Of a DNA stretch of 64,000 bases, positions 53,648 through 59,110 are shown one piece after another. Every line of letters begins with the position of its first letter. The first letter of the stretch is position 1. This DNA comes from Bradyrhizobium oligotrophicum S58 (GTDB taxonomy: Bacteria; Pseudomonadota; Alphaproteobacteria; Rhizobiales; Xanthobacteraceae). The DNA lies in the NCBI RefSeq assembly GCF_000344805.1, contig NC_020453.1, forward strand, positions 2,232,001 through 2,296,000, read 5' to 3'. The position numbers were made by a program, and so were the translations under genes. The notes below the pieces were generated by a model. The model saw only the letters and a program-made list of their open reading frames with translations. It was not told where the DNA came from and ran no database searches.

Positions 53648-56230
53648 TCACGCCCGCTCGACGAAGCTGTCGACGACCTTCTTCTCGCCGGCCTTGTCGA
53701 AGGCGATGGTCAGCTTGTTGCCGTCGATCTTGACGACGCGGCCATAGCCGAACTTCTGGTGAAACACGCGGTCGTCGAGTGCGAATTCCGACGTGGTGCC
53801 GGTCGATTTCGCGACCAGCTCGCCCTCGATGGTCAGCGGTCCGCGCTTGCTCCGGCCAAAATTACCGCCAAAGCCGCCGCCGAAAGGATCGCGCCCCGAG
53901 AATGGCGATTGCTCTTCCTTGAAGCCGCCTTCGGTCGCCCCGCGCGCTGCGCCGGGGCGACGCGCCTGCGCGCGCTGCCAGCCCGGCGTGGAATAGCTCG
54001 ATCCGAAGGATTCGACATTGTCGAAACGCGACGGGCCATAGCCGCCGGCGCCGCCCCAGCCGGAGCCGCCCTTGGATTCCGTGATCTCGACGCTGCCGGC
54101 CGGCAATTCGTCGAGGAAGCGCGACGGAATCGTCGTGGTCCAGGTGCCGTGGATGCGGCGGTTGGTGGCGAAATAGAGCTTGGCGCGACGGCGCGCGCGG
54201 GTCAGCCCGACATGGGCGAGGCGGCGCTCCTCTTCGAGCCCGGCACGGCCCTGTTCGTCGAGCGTGCGCTGGCTCGGAAACAGACCTTCCTCCCAGCCCG
54301 GCAGAAACACGTTGTCGAACTCCAGCCCCTTGGCCGAGTGCAGGGTCATCAGCGACACCGCGTCCTCGTCCGCGGCGCCCTCGCGGTCCATCACCAGCGA
54401 GATGTGCTCGAGGAAGCCGTGCAAATTCTCGAACTCCTCCATCGAGCGGATGAGCTCTTTCAAATTGTCGAGGCGCCCGGCCGCATCGGCCGAGCGGTCC
54501 TTCTGCCACATCTCGGTATAGCCGCTCTCGTCGAGCACGATCTCGGCGAGCTCGGTGTGCGGCGTCACCTCGCGCTGGGCGCGCCAGCGCTCGAACTGCA
54601 GCACGAGCTGGCGCAGGCTCCCGCGCGCCTTCGGCTTCAGCTCGTCGGTCTCGACCACGGCGCGCGCCGCCTCGAACAGCGGGATACGGCGCTTGCGGGC
54701 GTGATCGTGCAGCATCTGCACGGTGGCATCGCCGAGCCCGCGCTTCGGCACGTTGACGATGCGCTCGAAGGCGAGGTCGTCGGCCGGCGAGTTGATGACG
54801 CGCAAGTAAGCCAGCGCATCGCGGATCTCGGCGCGCTCGTAGAAGCGGGGACCGCCGATGACGCGGTAGGGCAGGCCGAGCGTGACGAAACGGTCCTCGA
54901 ATTCGCGCATCTGGTATGAGGCGCGCACCAGGATGGCGATGTCGTTGAGATGCTCGCCCTTGCGCTGCAGCTCCTCGATCTCCTCGCCAATGCCGCGGGC
55001 TTCCTCCTCGGAGTCCCACGCGCCGGTGACGGTGACTTTCTCACCCTCGACGTCCTCGGTGCGCAGCGTCTTGCCGAGCCGGCCTTCATTGTGCGTGATC
55101 AAATGCGAGGCGGCCGCCAAGATGTGGCCGGTCGAGCGGTAGTTGCGCTCCAGCCGGATCACCTTGGCGCCGGGGAAGTCGTGCTCGAAGCGCAGGATGT
55201 TGTCGACCTCGGCGCCGCGCCAGCCATAGATCGACTGATCGTCGTCGCCGACGCAGCAGATGTTCTTGGGTGGAGGGGTGGCGCCAGGAACCGCAACGCT
55301 CTTCTCGTCATCGCCGGGCCGACGCGCTGCGTCGTGGCCCGGTGATCCATCTTCGTCCGAAGCCGCGATGGATTGCCGGGTCGAGCCCGGCAATGACGAG
55401 CCGGACGACGATGGGGCCTGCGACAGCAGCCGCAGCCAGAGATATTGCGCGACGTTGGTGTCCTGGTACTCGTCGACCAGGATGAACTTGAAGCGGTTCT
55501 GATACTGCCGCAGCACGTCCGGGTTCTCGCGAAACAGCCGGATGCACTCCAGCAGGAGATCGCCGAAATCGGCGGCGTTGAGGATCTTCAGCCGCTCCTG
55601 ATAGCTCGCATACAGCTTGCCGCCCTTGCCGTTGCCGAACACGGCGGCTTCGCCAGACGGCACCTGGGACGGCATCAGGCCACGGTTCTTCCAGCCGTCG
55701 ATCAGCCCGGCCAGCATGCGCGCCGGCCAGCGCTTGTCGTCGATGTTCTCGGCCTGCAGCAACTGCTTGAGCAGCCGGATCTGGTCGTCAGTGTCGAGCA
55801 CGGTGAAGTTGGACTTCAGCTGCACCAGCTCGGCATGGCTGCGCAGGATGCGGCCGGCGATCGAGTGGAAGGTGCCGAGCCACGGCATGCCCTCGACCGC
55901 CTGGCCGAGCATCTCGGCGAGCCGCGTCTTCATCTCGCGCGCGGCCTTGTTGGTGAAGGTCACCGACAGGATTTCACCCGGGCGTGCGCGGCCCTGGCTC
56001 AGGATATGCGCGATGCGCGTCGTCAGCACGCGGGTCTTGCCGGTGCCTGCACCGGCCAGCACCAGCACCGGGCCGTCGAGCGTCTCGACCGCGTCGCGCT
56101 GCTCCGGATTGAGGCCCGCGAGATAGCGCGCCCCGCCGCTCGCAGCGGCACGGGCGCGCGCGGCGATGCCGCCGGCGACGGGCTGGTGGTCGGGCGCAGG
56201 AAAAGGGCTCAGGCGGTTGGGCTCGGTCAT
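53648..56230 (-). CDS. uvrD: UvrD/PcrA-type DNA helicase with a repeat-encoded insert
   Basis: A superfamily 1A 3'-5' helicase for nucleotide excision and mismatch repair. The start ATG at 56230 gives 860 residues. Motif I is AGAGTGKTR (60-67), Ia is TFTNKAAREM, II is LVDEYQDTN (251-259), III is CVGDDDQSIYGWRGAE, and IV-VI follow (LERNYRS, VSLMTLHSAKGLEFDNV, VGLTRARRR). The C-terminal tail ends in a Tudor-like part (VFHQKFGYGRVVKIDGNKLTIAFD), typical of PcrA/UvrD. Between motifs II and III, where homologs have only a few residues, there are about 50 extra residues (272-321); 33 of them are encoded by a palindromic repeat. Confidence 0.95.
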   Translation of the reverse strand: MTEPNRLSPFPAPDHQPVAGGIAARARAAASGGARYLAGLNPEQRDAVETLDGPVLVLAGAGTGKTRVLTTRIAHILSQGRARPGEILSVTFTNKAAREMKTRLAEMLGQAVEGMPWLGTFHSIAGRILRSHAELVQLKSNFTVLDTDDQIRLLKQLLQAENIDDKRWPARMLAGLIDGWKNRGLMPSQVPSGEAAVFGNGKGGKLYASYQERLKILNAADFGDLLLECIRLFRENPDVLRQYQNRFKFILVDEYQDTNVAQYLWLRLLSQAPSSSGSSLPGSTRQSIAASDEDGSPGHDAARRPGDDEKSVAVPGATPPPKNICCVGDDDQSIYGWRGAEVDNILRFEHDFPGAKVIRLERNYRSTGHILAAASHLITHNEGRLGKTLRTEDVEGEKVTVTGAWDSEEEARGIGEEIEELQRKGEHLNDIAILVRASYQMREFEDRFVTLGLPYRVIGGPRFYERAEIRDALAYLRVINSPADDLAFERIVNVPKRGLGDATVQMLHDHARKRRIPLFEAARAVVETDELKPKARGSLRQLVLQFERWRAQREVTPHTELAEIVLDESGYTEMWQKDRSADAAGRLDNLKELIRSMEEFENLHGFLEHISLVMDREGAADEDAVSLMTLHSAKGLEFDNVFLPGWEEGLFPSQRTLDEQGRAGLEEERRLAHVGLTRARRRAKLYFATNRRIHGTWTTTIPSRFLDELPAGSVEITESKGGSGWGGAGGYGPSRFDNVESFGSSYSTPGWQRAQARRPGAARGATEGGFKEEQSPFSGRDPFGGGFGGNFGRSKRGPLTIEGELVAKSTGTTSEFALDDRVFHQKFGYGRVVKIDGNKLTIAFDKAGEKKVVDSFVERA
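55305..55400. repeat. Palindromic repeat inside the helicase gene
   Basis: A 96-bp palindromic element lies inside the helicase coding region. On the minus strand it begins CTCGTCATTGCCGGG and ends CCCGGCGATGACGAG; inside are the hairpin GCCGGGCTCGACCCGGC and the pair CAATCCATC/GATGGATCA. This is the Bradyrhizobium REP-like type that normally lies between genes. Its length is a multiple of three and the frame used has no stop, so the helicase stays open across it. Confidence 0.85.
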
Positions 56231-56512
56231 CAGCGAATCAGTCTCATCCCTCTGATGCCACCATACGACGGCATCGAGAGGTCTGCAGGAAGGAGCCCTC
56301 ATAGCAGGGATTGACGGCTATATGGGGCCGTCGGGCGCGTTTTACAGCCCTAAATCGGGCGCTGCGCCGGCTCCACGCGGCTTTTGTTCCTGCGAACCGC
56401 GAATTTTTAGCGGCGCACGCCGCCGGAACCTTTGTTCCCGGCCACGATTGTCCCGGCAACGGCGCAAGCTCCGCGTCGCTTTGAACCGCAATCGAGAGAC
56501 AGAGGTCGTGTC

Positions 56513-56686
56513 ATGTTAAGCTGGGTCGTTACCTTCCTGGTTATCGCATTGATCGCCGGCATCCTCGGCTTCGGCGGCGTCGCCGGTGCCTCCATCGAGA
56601 TCGCCAAGATCATCTTCTTCATCGCCATCGTGCTGTTTCTGGTGTCGGCCGTCGTGGGCCTCGCCCGCGGCCGCTCCCGCGTGTAG
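56513..56686 (+). CDS. UPF0391 (DUF1328) small membrane protein, copy A
   Basis: A 57-residue protein with two hydrophobic helices: [21 protein letters not shown] (2-22) and [21 protein letters not shown] (30-50), and a basic C terminus ARGRSRV. This matches the UPF0391/YtjA family. It is preceded by AGAGGT. Copy B differs at three residues (L18P, I39L, S55T). Function is unknown; in other bacteria members are often stress-induced. Confidence 0.92.
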
Positions 56687-56718
56687 TCGGCCTCATCCCC
56701 TGACAAATGAGGTCGGCG

Positions 56719-56754
56719 AAGGGCGCAGTGCCTCGCAAGGGGCGCTGCGCCCTT
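56719..56754 (+). terminator. Hairpin terminator after UPF0391 copy A
   Basis: AAGGGCGCAG (56719-56728) pairs with CTGCGCCCTT (56745-56754), followed by TT. The same hairpin with one mismatch is found after copy B. Confidence 0.7.
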
Positions 56755-56918
56755 TGCGGCTCCTGCGACCCAGTTGGAGCCGGCGTGCCGGGCATCTCGG
56801 AGCGCGCGGATCGACTTGGGGGCGGTGCGGACGAAAGGGAGGATCCGATTGCGTCCGTTCGGGGCGTGACCTCGATCCTCGGAAGTGCGGTCCGTTTGCG
56901 CCAGCGGATCGATTCGGA

Positions 56919-58157
56919 TCAGCTCGAACAATTGATGATCCTGAGTTCGACGCGACGGTCGAGTGCGTCGCTCGGATCGTCGCGGCCGGTACCGACGATC
57001 ATTTCTCGAGATCCGCGGCCGCTGGCGATCAGCCGGCCCTCGAGGCTTCTGTCCTCGGCCAGGATCTGATCCCTGACATAAGCGGCGCGCAGGACGGACA
57101 GCCGGTCATTGACGCCGGCATATCCCGTCGCGCTGGTATGACCTGCCACTTCGAGGCAGACATGATTGGCGGCGGTTCGTTGCGCGATCTTGCCGATCCA
57201 GGCCTGATAGGGCGCGCGCACCTCTGGATCGGCGTAGAGCAACGTCGAGCCCGGCTTGAACAGAAACTTGATCGCGAGCCGATCGCTGTTCTTCAGCCCG
57301 AAATCGAGCAGCCGGTCGAATGCCTGCATGGCGAGTTGCGTGCGGCCGAGCTTGAGGGCCGAGAGGTAGATTCCGCTGTAGATGCGCAGCTGCTCGCCAC
57401 CGTCCATTCGCAGCGCGGTCTGATAGAGCTCGAGCGCGGCCTTGTAGCGGCCGGCATTGTAGGCCTCGATTCCCTCGTTGACCTGAGCCGAGGCGAGGAT
57501 GTGATTGGTATAGATCTGGTCGACGGCGTCGCCCGGCTTGGCGCCCTGGCAGCTTCTCACATAGGCCTCGGTGGCGGGGTCGTTGGTGTGGACCGGGCTA
57601 TCCTTGAAGAAGGGGACCGGTGTCGGATCGACGTCGTCGGGCAGCGCGCGCGCGACGCCCTTTGAGACGACCGTGTTACTGTTCAGATCGGCGATCGCAA
57701 GGCAGATCCGGTAGGCGTCGCGGGGGCCCGTAGGCAAGCCGTCGTTATTGATCGGGGTGAGGGTGCCGATCAGGACCAGCGGCTTTCGTAACAGCGAGGC
57801 CACCGTGAACGGCAGGGTGCGGATCCGGGGGTAGTTGGCCGCGATGAGCGCGGTGATGCGTTGCTGCTCCAGCAACGTTGCTGCCGATTGCACCCGGGTG
57901 ACGCCGTCGATCAACGGGTCGATCACCAGTTCGAGTTGGCCCGGCGCAGCGTCGTCCTCGAATTTGGACAGCAGGTCATGGGCCGCTTTCGACAGCGCAT
58001 TTTCGAGCGGCACGGGCGTTGGAGGAGGCGCGATCGCTGCCAATGGCGGCGTTGCCTGTGCCGACGGCGAGATCTCCAGCGCCCGGATCGCCGGAGCCGG
58101 ACACGCGACGATCAGCCAACAAAGTGCGAGCCCGATCGGGCCCTTGCGAAGAAACAC
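56919..58157 (-). CDS. Secreted TPR and OmpA-domain protein
   Basis: A 412-residue exported protein with a signal peptide (about 1-26, ending AIRA-LE). The middle has a domain resembling FlgO/LpoB-like lipoprotein regions (ALIAANYPRIRTLPFTVASLLRKPLVLIGTL), then TPR-like helices (EGIEAYNAGRYKAALELYQTA, about 235-255). The C terminus is an OmpA domain (IKFLFKPGSTLLY, CLEVAGHTSATGYAGVNDRLSVLRAAYV, DALDRRVELRI). It probably binds peptidoglycan in the periplasm. It lies between the two UPF0391 copies on the opposite strand, with its own promoter presumably in 58158-58300. Confidence 0.8.
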   Translation of the reverse strand: MFLRKGPIGLALCWLIVACPAPAIRALEISPSAQATPPLAAIAPPPTPVPLENALSKAAHDLLSKFEDDAAPGQLELVIDPLIDGVTRVQSAATLLEQQRITALIAANYPRIRTLPFTVASLLRKPLVLIGTLTPINNDGLPTGPRDAYRICLAIADLNSNTVVSKGVARALPDDVDPTPVPFFKDSPVHTNDPATEAYVRSCQGAKPGDAVDQIYTNHILASAQVNEGIEAYNAGRYKAALELYQTALRMDGGEQLRIYSGIYLSALKLGRTQLAMQAFDRLLDFGLKNSDRLAIKFLFKPGSTLLYADPEVRAPYQAWIGKIAQRTAANHVCLEVAGHTSATGYAGVNDRLSVLRAAYVRDQILAEDRSLEGRLIASGRGSREMIVGTGRDDPSDALDRRVELRIINCSS

Positions 58158-58822
58158 GACGTGCTCTCGTCAGAAGACAGATTTCAACCCATGGAATGAT
58201 TGAGGAATTTCTTGTCGAAAGCAGGTCGCTCAACCGTGGTTGGTGGATTTTCAAGTTGCACGAATCTTGCGCCCAGCGGGGGGTCTGGCCCAGACTCGCC
58301 ACACCTTCGCTGGATTTCGAATGCCCCACGGGCGTCCCACTGCCGCTCCTCGATCGCCTGATCCTGTTGAATGCATGACGATCGCGGCGGCTGCGCATTG
58401 CGCCGGCGATCGCATTTCGTCGCCTAGATTATGGCGGTCGGATCCAAGGCGTATGGAGGCGCCGCCCAGGTGTTGTCCGATGTTTGCTGAAAGTGTGGCT
58501 TGGGCAGGGTCCGTGAATCGTTTGCCGCGTGAGGATGTCTCGGCCGGCCCGCAGCTGTATTCCCAGTGAACTCGTTCGTGCAAGCGCGCTGCCCGATGAA
58601 CTCCGACGACGCGGTGCTGCAAGTCGAGAACGACCCGCGCGACGCGATGACGAGGCATTGCGGCCTAGCCAGAGGTCCTCCGGGAGCGATTGGCGCGTCG
58701 TCTGCGCCTCGCGTTCTGATCGGCGGAGTTCGCACGTCCCATATCCTCTCGTTGGCTCGACGTAACTAACAATGAGCAAGGGAGGTTGGCACCGGATGCC
58801 CACGTCGATCTCATTTCGGAGG
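58158..58822. other. Gap of about 665 bp, no gene recognised
   Basis: This region between the TPR/OmpA gene and UPF0391 copy B is less uniform in codon-position composition than its neighbours, and no frame has a domain, signal peptide or ribosome site. It must hold the promoter of the leftward OmpA gene and sequence upstream of UPF0391 copy B. It has no counterpart upstream of copy A, so it is outside the duplicated unit. Confidence 0.5.
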
Positions 58823-58869
58823 AAGCTCCGCGTCGCTGTGAACCGCAATCGAGAGACAGAGGTCGTGTC

Positions 58870-59043
58870 ATGTTGAGCTGGGTCGTCACCTTTCTGGTTA
58901 TCGCATTGATCGCCGGCATCCCCGGCTTCGGCGGCGTCGCCGGTGCCTCCATCGAGATCGCCAAGATCATCTTCTTCATCGCTCTTGTGCTGTTCCTGGT
59001 GTCGGCTGTCGTGGGCCTCGCCCGCGGCCGCACCCGCGTGTAG
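58870..59043 (+). CDS. UPF0391 (DUF1328) small membrane protein, copy B
   Basis: A 57-residue paralog of copy A with the same two hydrophobic helices. Proline at position 18 (AGIPGFGG) replaces leucine at the end of helix 1, position 39 is Leu, and position 55 is Thr (GRTRV). Many of the other differences are silent, which suggests the coding sequence is still under selection. The leader just upstream is nearly identical to copy A, so both may be expressed the same way. Confidence 0.92.
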
Positions 59044-59074
59044 TCGGCCTCATCCCTGACAAATGAGGTCGGCG

Positions 59075-59110
59075 AAGGGCGCAGTGCCTCTTGCGAGGCG
59101 CTGCGCACTT
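59075..59110 (+). terminator. Hairpin terminator after UPF0391 copy B
   Basis: AAGGGCGCAG (59075-59084) pairs with CTGCGCACTT (59101-59110) with one mismatch, and the inner GCCTC/GAGGC pairs perfectly around TTGC. TTT then TTTT follow at short distance. The convergent roadblock-like gene ends 33 bp later. Confidence 0.6.

Follow-up and report, generated by a model that had tools for sequence, protein, structure and literature searches.

Recurrent capture and long maintenance of palindromic repeats as a likely origin of an in-frame REP-type element in uvrD of Bradyrhizobium

What is a REP-type palindrome doing inside the reading frame of a DNA-repair helicase, and how did it come to stay there? 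The question arises in a 64,000-nucleotide stretch of the Bradyrhizobium oligotrophicum S58 genome (contig NC_020453.1, positions 2,232,001 to 2,296,000; hereafter the window), where a sequence-only reading had proposed that such a palindrome lies in frame within uvrD. This proposal was confirmed. A 96-bp element at 55304-55399 (minus strand; 2287304-2287399 of the contig), which we call family A, is matched at 101.1 bits by a covariance model built from 12 uvrD copies, the present one included, and is read without a stop as 32 codons in frame with uvrD, SSLPGSTRQSIAASDEDGSPGHDAARRPGDDE.

The host open reading frame (ORF; 53648-56302, minus strand) encodes 884 amino acids from its first ATG, while the database protein has 860, its start lying about 24 codons downstream, near 56230. 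Pfam matches to UvrD-helicase (285.9 bits) and UvrD_C (232 bits) identify a UvrD/PcrA-type helicase, and the best NCBIfam model is pcrA, at 765.5 bits, below its cut-off of 911.2. Elsewhere in the window, two minus-strand ORFs at 56407-56931 and 58665-59108 have a long peptide stretch in common, and the plus strand at the same two places may carry two copies of a small membrane-protein-like gene.

The element is an inverted REP dimer, the hairpins and CGTC tags of both units facing outwards. The first REP has its tag at 55395-55398 on the coding strand and its hairpin at 55372-55394 (minus strand; helix 2 of the pair counts), with a 9-bp stem (ATTGCCGGG/CCCGGCAAT) and a 5-nt loop, within the 8-9-bp stems and 4-5-nt loops of CGTC-type REPs. 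The second REP, in the opposite orientation, has its tag on the plus strand at 55306-55309 and its hairpin at 55310-55346 (minus strand; helices 5 and 6); its stem (ATCACCGGG/CCCGGCGAT) spans nine positions with one A-C mismatch in the present uvrD, and its loop, enlarged to about 19 nt and so outside the 4-5-nt range, contains a hairpin of its own at 55320-55334. Between the two REPs, at 55347-55371 (minus strand), lies a central stem, CCATC/GATGG, with a fast-evolving loop. Four tag pairs are present in all 12 rows compared, one row having a U-G pair.

Pairing was counted in 12 family-A copies, 7 in uvrD and 5 elsewhere (2 in uvrA, from loci L199 and L200, and 3 not in coding frame). A cloverleaf fold has 95.7% of 396 cells paired and 9 of 33 pairs changed on both sides, which none of 500 shuffles reached. 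The long-rod fold preferred by energy models, with both-side changes at 5 of 34 pairs, was set aside. The surrounding segment, 55280-55425, folds better than any of 200 shuffles both as DNA (z -3.9) and as coding-strand RNA (z -3.0). At default settings the repeat finder listed no inverted repeat at 55200-55500, and no curated RNA family of Rfam falls on the palindrome. The window's sole match above a gathering threshold is a bacterial RNase P RNA (class A) at 1037-1478 on the minus strand.

Where in the protein does the element fall? The sequence-only reading had placed it in a loop of about 50 residues between helicase motifs II and III and credited it with 33 of them; the loop length holds, but the element's share is 32 codons. 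Aligned with the chains 1PJR (PcrA) and 3LFU (DNA helicase II), the product shows a gap at query residues 294 to 346-348, with about 50 residues here against 3 in 1PJR and 5 in 3LFU. The loop follows the helix after motif II and precedes the strand leading to motif III. In an AlphaFold2 model made from 52 sequences (mean pLDDT 71.3, pTM 0.42), residues 271-322 of the 860-residue protein (55265-55420, minus strand) have no secondary structure, with ten-residue pLDDT means of 29-46 across 271-320; further stretches of the model, such as 362-395 and 722-810, also fall below 50. Together with the length variation among relatives, the model points to an unstructured loop, and the proposed likeness to the palindromic elements of Rickettsia is upheld.

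The remainder of the UvrD core is far more uniform, its segments varying by at most 8 residues among the 165-188 loci in which the motifs were found. The exception is a C-terminal linker of about 110 residues, which ranges from 77 to 166. Repeat-type peptide was recognised in this linker in 1 of 181 loci, compared with 89 of 125 enlarged loops, a comparison that favours the loop because the peptide pattern was derived from loop inserts. By eye, the C-terminal linkers of loci L054, L147 and L165 each contain a further repeat-looking stretch.

The insert is not specific to this strain, a point that the sequence-only reading had left to be checked. A linker of 65-91 residues is present in all of the first 30 genus loci fetched, the present one included, and an enlarged loop was seen in each of the 56 genus genomes in which it was read, out of 265 searched. 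Across the wider set it could be parsed in 188 of 190 loci (L112 and L151 gave no parsable loop; L027/L047, L049/L125, L051/L131 and L114/L159 are likely duplicate records), with 20-29 residues in 63 and 32-246 in 125. Short loops include those of Rhizobium, Methylobacterium, Ancylobacter, Stappia, Bosea and Roseibium loci, and enlarged ones those of Bradyrhizobium, Rhodopseudomonas, Nitrobacter, Rhodoplanes, Pseudolabrys and Tardiphaga, the last with 41 residues and no recognised repeat. Enlargement also occurs in other families of the order, in Mesorhizobium (L106 and L113), Tianweitania (T. populi, L102), Aurantimonas (L101) and Aminobacter.

What fills the enlarged loops differs from locus to locus. 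By peptide pattern, the 125 loops hold family A in 29 cases, B in 29, D in 17, E in 9 and C in 8, while 4 are F-bearing and 29 are other, so that loops with no recognised repeat are common (29 of the 188). The 120 nearest UvrD proteins listed divide into A 80, B 26, C 8 and D 6, a share of A that is inflated because the lists were ranked by likeness to family-A-bearing queries. As DNA queries, the uvrD inserts had matches in seven of eight genomes (B, 51-79; C, 5-104; D, 25-78; E, 25-78), with 55, 25, 55 and 25 for B, C, D and E in their own genomes. All counts are for both strands, and those for a source genome include the query. The eighth genome (G277), which has a 20-residue loop, gave 0, 0, 0 and 1. 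The inserts of families B to E match their dispersed copies at about 68-96%, and a Tianweitania insert outside the peptide patterns has 18 matches in its genome, itself included. The uvrD inserts of families B to E that were tested, and the Tianweitania one, are dispersed repeats.

Unlike families also occupy the same site in closely similar genes. Among ten near loci with pairwise flank identities of 0.90-0.95, the occupant is A, B or C. On a FastTree phylogeny of UvrD made without the loop, with "empty" scored as a state and "other" left out, the fewest changes of occupant label number 45, or 29 when branches with support below 95 are collapsed; changes between empty and enlarged number 10, or 7 with weak branches collapsed. 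Homologous recombination of uvrD may explain part of these counts. The view of the insert as a one-off event therefore had to be given up, since the same loop holds several repeat families in relatives and family A occurs in uvrA of three of them as well. The longest loop, of 246 residues in L147 (genome G301), is one open frame with two tandem family-A copies and other repeat-like pieces, and in the UvrD proteins P0067, P0069 and P0077 the first hairpin of family A seems to be interrupted by a further insert.

Repeat load and frame choice were also tallied. At most one family-B match was found in 12 of 16 genomes of the family with a 20-residue loop, compared with 9 of 36 with a loop of at least 39, in a tally that is confounded by kinship, draws on 54 of 61 genomes and on matches among 14 scored candidates, and leaves out one 27-residue genome and one with no parsed loop. 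Four genomes with 20-residue loops (G319, G276, G293 and G279) nevertheless carry family-B repeats. The frame used in uvrD is the most acidic open frame of the element in four of the five families, C being one unit off; when the whole insert is taken, the frame used ranks as most acidic in 57 of 101 loci, where 37.8 would be expected, and as least hydrophobic in 48 loci. As the rows are not independent, a choice of frame by charge is suggestive only.

Within the palindrome, arms and loops have diverged to different degrees. Among 26-27 family-A copies in uvrD (L054 and L147 excluded for their extra inserts, L047 included in some counts and dropped in others), divergence is 0.047-0.049 in the arms and 0.24-0.26 in the loops, and the central loop (0.314 pairwise) stands out against the stem of the left hairpin (0.025) and the central stem (0.066). 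At four-fold sites it is 0.23-0.25 in the flanks and 0.06-0.07 inside the arms, which hold just 12-14 or so such sites per sequence pair; in the element's loops it is 0.21-0.23 under the rod fold and 0.137 under the cloverleaf, the latter below the 0.24 of the flanks. Hairpin arms thus evolve more slowly than neutral sites.

Fresh reinsertion as the sole source of this similarity is disfavoured: loop distance tracks flank distance among the family-A copies (Mantel r 0.55, p 0.0002), so the element in uvrD seems to be mostly inherited rather than freshly inserted. Some reinsertion of family A, drawn from copies whose loops already differ, could still contribute. Compensatory change is rare in this family (1 of 650 cells, with 17 broken), which suggests that the feature kept may be sequence rather than pairing. 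D inserts in uvrD show 27 compensatory and 4 broken of 364 cells and B inserts 30 and 5 of 322; the copies of these two families may be separate insertions.

Does the same happen in other genes? In three relatives, uvrA (L199, 1099-4092; L200, 2-3565; L204, 3-2426) carries an in-frame family-A palindrome in the orientation opposite to that in uvrD, and the frames read in the two genes differ, each resembling open frames of the element. As in UvrD, a single loop is concerned. Among 120 listed homologues this loop could be parsed in 116, with lengths of 26 to 79 residues; two downstream spans do not vary, having 41 and 576 residues in all 120. In this set, ordered by similarity to a family-A-bearing query, the occupant is A in 60 (reverse orientation), G in 11, E in 7 and D in 2; a remnant-like form is seen in 12, 14 are empty (26-29 residues), 10 are other and 4 gave no match. 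By peptide pattern, then, families A, D and E appear in UvrA too. Even an "empty" Bradyrhizobium UvrA has 26 unaligned residues where chain 2R6F has two. The 12 remnant-like loops (P0199, P0201, P0210 and nine others, several of them from Rhodopseudomonas) have 39 residues and retain what may be one end of family A, a form that would fit the deletion of most of the element. Of the genes whose motifs were sought in the fetched sequences (uvrA, uvrB, mutS, recA, mfd, recG and polA), uvrA alone was found.

The element had been taken for a type found between genes in Bradyrhizobium, of which the genome should hold further copies, perhaps some of them in frame. Relatives do have full-length copies outside uvrD, but the full 96-bp form was not found between genes in the present genome, where blastn, a strict core pattern and the covariance model (150 of 20111 candidates scored) yielded weaker relatives and partial copies but no second full-length family-A copy. 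The model gave 28 matches among the candidates scored, the best besides uvrD at 55.9 bits; blastn gave three matches of 31-32 bp at 91-97% and one of 83 bp at 69%; and the core pattern hit uvrD only. The same model, with 150 candidates scored in each of 20 genomes, found the uvrD copy at 91-115 bits in eight and at 60-66 bits in G301, whose loop holds further inserts. Outside uvrD, seven copies reached at least 70 bits, three of them coding, all in uvrA in the opposite orientation to uvrD, and four not. None of eight weaker copies tested is coding.

No other in-frame copy emerged among those listed for the present genome. Judged by codon bias, 51 further copies of families A-E all fall outside coding frames, and the uvrD copy tests positive. 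These copies are the best matches listed rather than every copy, and represent 51 of the 54 distinct places among them, three of family E being left out. The test was gauged on 34 ORFs of the window, picked for their third-position GC: it called 1152 of 1281 positions in held-out ORFs and 11 of 6393 in the wrong frame. Eight ORFs score less clearly across repeats; six of them have no Pfam domain, and the other two (an acyl-CoA dehydrogenase and PriA) have domains on one side of the repeat only. These observations suggest that the DNA-repair genes uvrD and uvrA are unusual landing places for palindromic repeats.

The explanation that we favour, with a probability of roughly 0.7, is recurrent capture and long maintenance of palindromes in the loops of UvrD and UvrA. 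The insert would consist of two CGTC-type REP palindromes in inverted arrangement, translated into a disordered UvrD loop with net acidic charge. Dispersed palindromic repeats of families A to G would enter one loop in UvrD and one in UvrA time and again; a copy would survive if it preserved the frame and encoded a hydrophilic peptide, and captured repeats would be inherited for long periods before being replaced, nested into, deleted or eroded. The UvrD protein is presumably made with its loop. Either selection on a hairpin, in DNA or RNA, or a process by which the element maintains itself, for example conversion, probably keeps the arms, and the choice of two excision-repair genes as hosts probably reflects targeting or selection beyond mere tolerance. 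Our leading guess for the role of the hairpin is a cis effect on uvrD and uvrA expression.

How far could tolerance by itself go? It is possible, though improbable in our judgement, that selfish palindromes insert anywhere, that the loop is one of few bearable places and that only frame and solubility are selected. The UvrD loop is unstructured in the AlphaFold2 model and variable in length, the elements have 3-4 of six frames open, remnant-like and unclassified linkers exist, and the available text of a 2007 review sees neutral tolerance in the Rickettsia case that was tested (PMC2229807). The earlier suggestion that the insert may be harmless can stand on this footing, but arm conservation (0.05 against 0.24 at four-fold sites of the flanks) and the 51 listed copies lying outside coding frames speak for something more. 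Tolerance also sits poorly with the C-terminal linker, in which repeat-type peptide is so rare, even allowing for a pattern biased to the loop, and with a second host, uvrA, that is again an excision-repair gene. A still more doubtful proposal is that selection keeps the palindromes as cis-acting hairpins, at the mRNA or DNA level, through which uvrD and uvrA are tuned jointly. Low arm divergence at four-fold sites and the presence of family A in both genes, in opposite orientations, would fit, as would the pairing kept by D inserts (27 cells compensatory, 4 broken) and B inserts (30 and 5), which may be separate insertions. However, no palindrome can be recognised in the loop of several lineages, family A shows one compensatory cell in 650, and the orientation differs between uvrD and uvrA.

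A bolder form of the cis-acting idea, which we regard as unlikely, is that uvrA and uvrD each keep a hairpin insert as a shared cis-acting sensor or brake, different families being drafted to the same role in each lineage; such a hairpin might stall polymerase or ribosome, or be bound by repair proteins. Least credible of all is a single ancient insert from which families A to F have diverged, the turnover being only apparent. A and B have CGTCAT/ATGACG ends in common, inheritance within family A looks mostly vertical, and the same idea appears in the available text on RPE-4/6/7 of Rickettsia (PMC3767692). Yet by eye C, D and E lack these ends, the B to E inserts each match dispersed copies of their own, unlike inserts occupy near loci with flanks up to 94.9% identical, and tandem and seemingly nested inserts occur. 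Recurrent capture with long maintenance therefore remains our preferred account. One protein loop with many changes of occupant, and a second in a partner of the same pathway, amount to a repeatable natural experiment, and they show a way in which scattered non-coding repeats can turn into protein sequence in bacteria such as Bradyrhizobium.

Parts of this picture are already in print. CGTC REPs were described in 2013, and the available text of that paper reports REPs inside uvrA, uvrB, a UvrD/REP helicase, recBCD and other repair genes, doubting them as fortuitous (PMC3733652); REP inserts in uvrA and uvrD are thus not new. Our search, made in titles and abstracts and mostly outside subscription journals and supplements, found no report of a UvrD/UvrA loop hotspot, of the reuse of one loop or of arm conservation. 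The suspicion voiced in 2013, that REPs do not strike DNA-repair genes at random, becomes directly testable. The present element shares with the CGTC superfamily, as far as the available text describes it, the CGTC tag, the 8-9-bp stem and the arrangement in dimers, and differs in the enlarged loop of its second REP with a hairpin of its own; families C, D and E lack the CGTC tag by eye. The tags are unpaired in that description, whereas in the energy-free fold used here the two tags pair with each other (PMC3733652). Genes of the same category are there said to carry REPs at different sites, Xanthomonas recB excepted, while in the present case several families share a single site in each gene. 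Inverted pairing of REP-like hairpins is also a feature of the REP/RAYT system, and Table 1 of the same paper gives no transposase association for CGTC repeats (PMC3733652).

A second parallel is with the palindromic elements of Rickettsia and Wolbachia, whose Rickettsia cases were reviewed in 2007. As portrayed in the available texts, these too are palindromes of about 100-150 bp fused in frame and solvent-exposed (PMC2229807, PMC3767692), and the uvrD insert likewise lies in frame in a conserved gene. Different RPE groups occur near one site in Rickettsia orthologues, with a hotspot weighed against common origin as one of two possibilities (PMC3767692). What sets the present case apart from those accounts is that the hosts are Hyphomicrobiales, that unlike families occupy one site, that two excision-repair genes are involved and that conservation of the arms has been measured.
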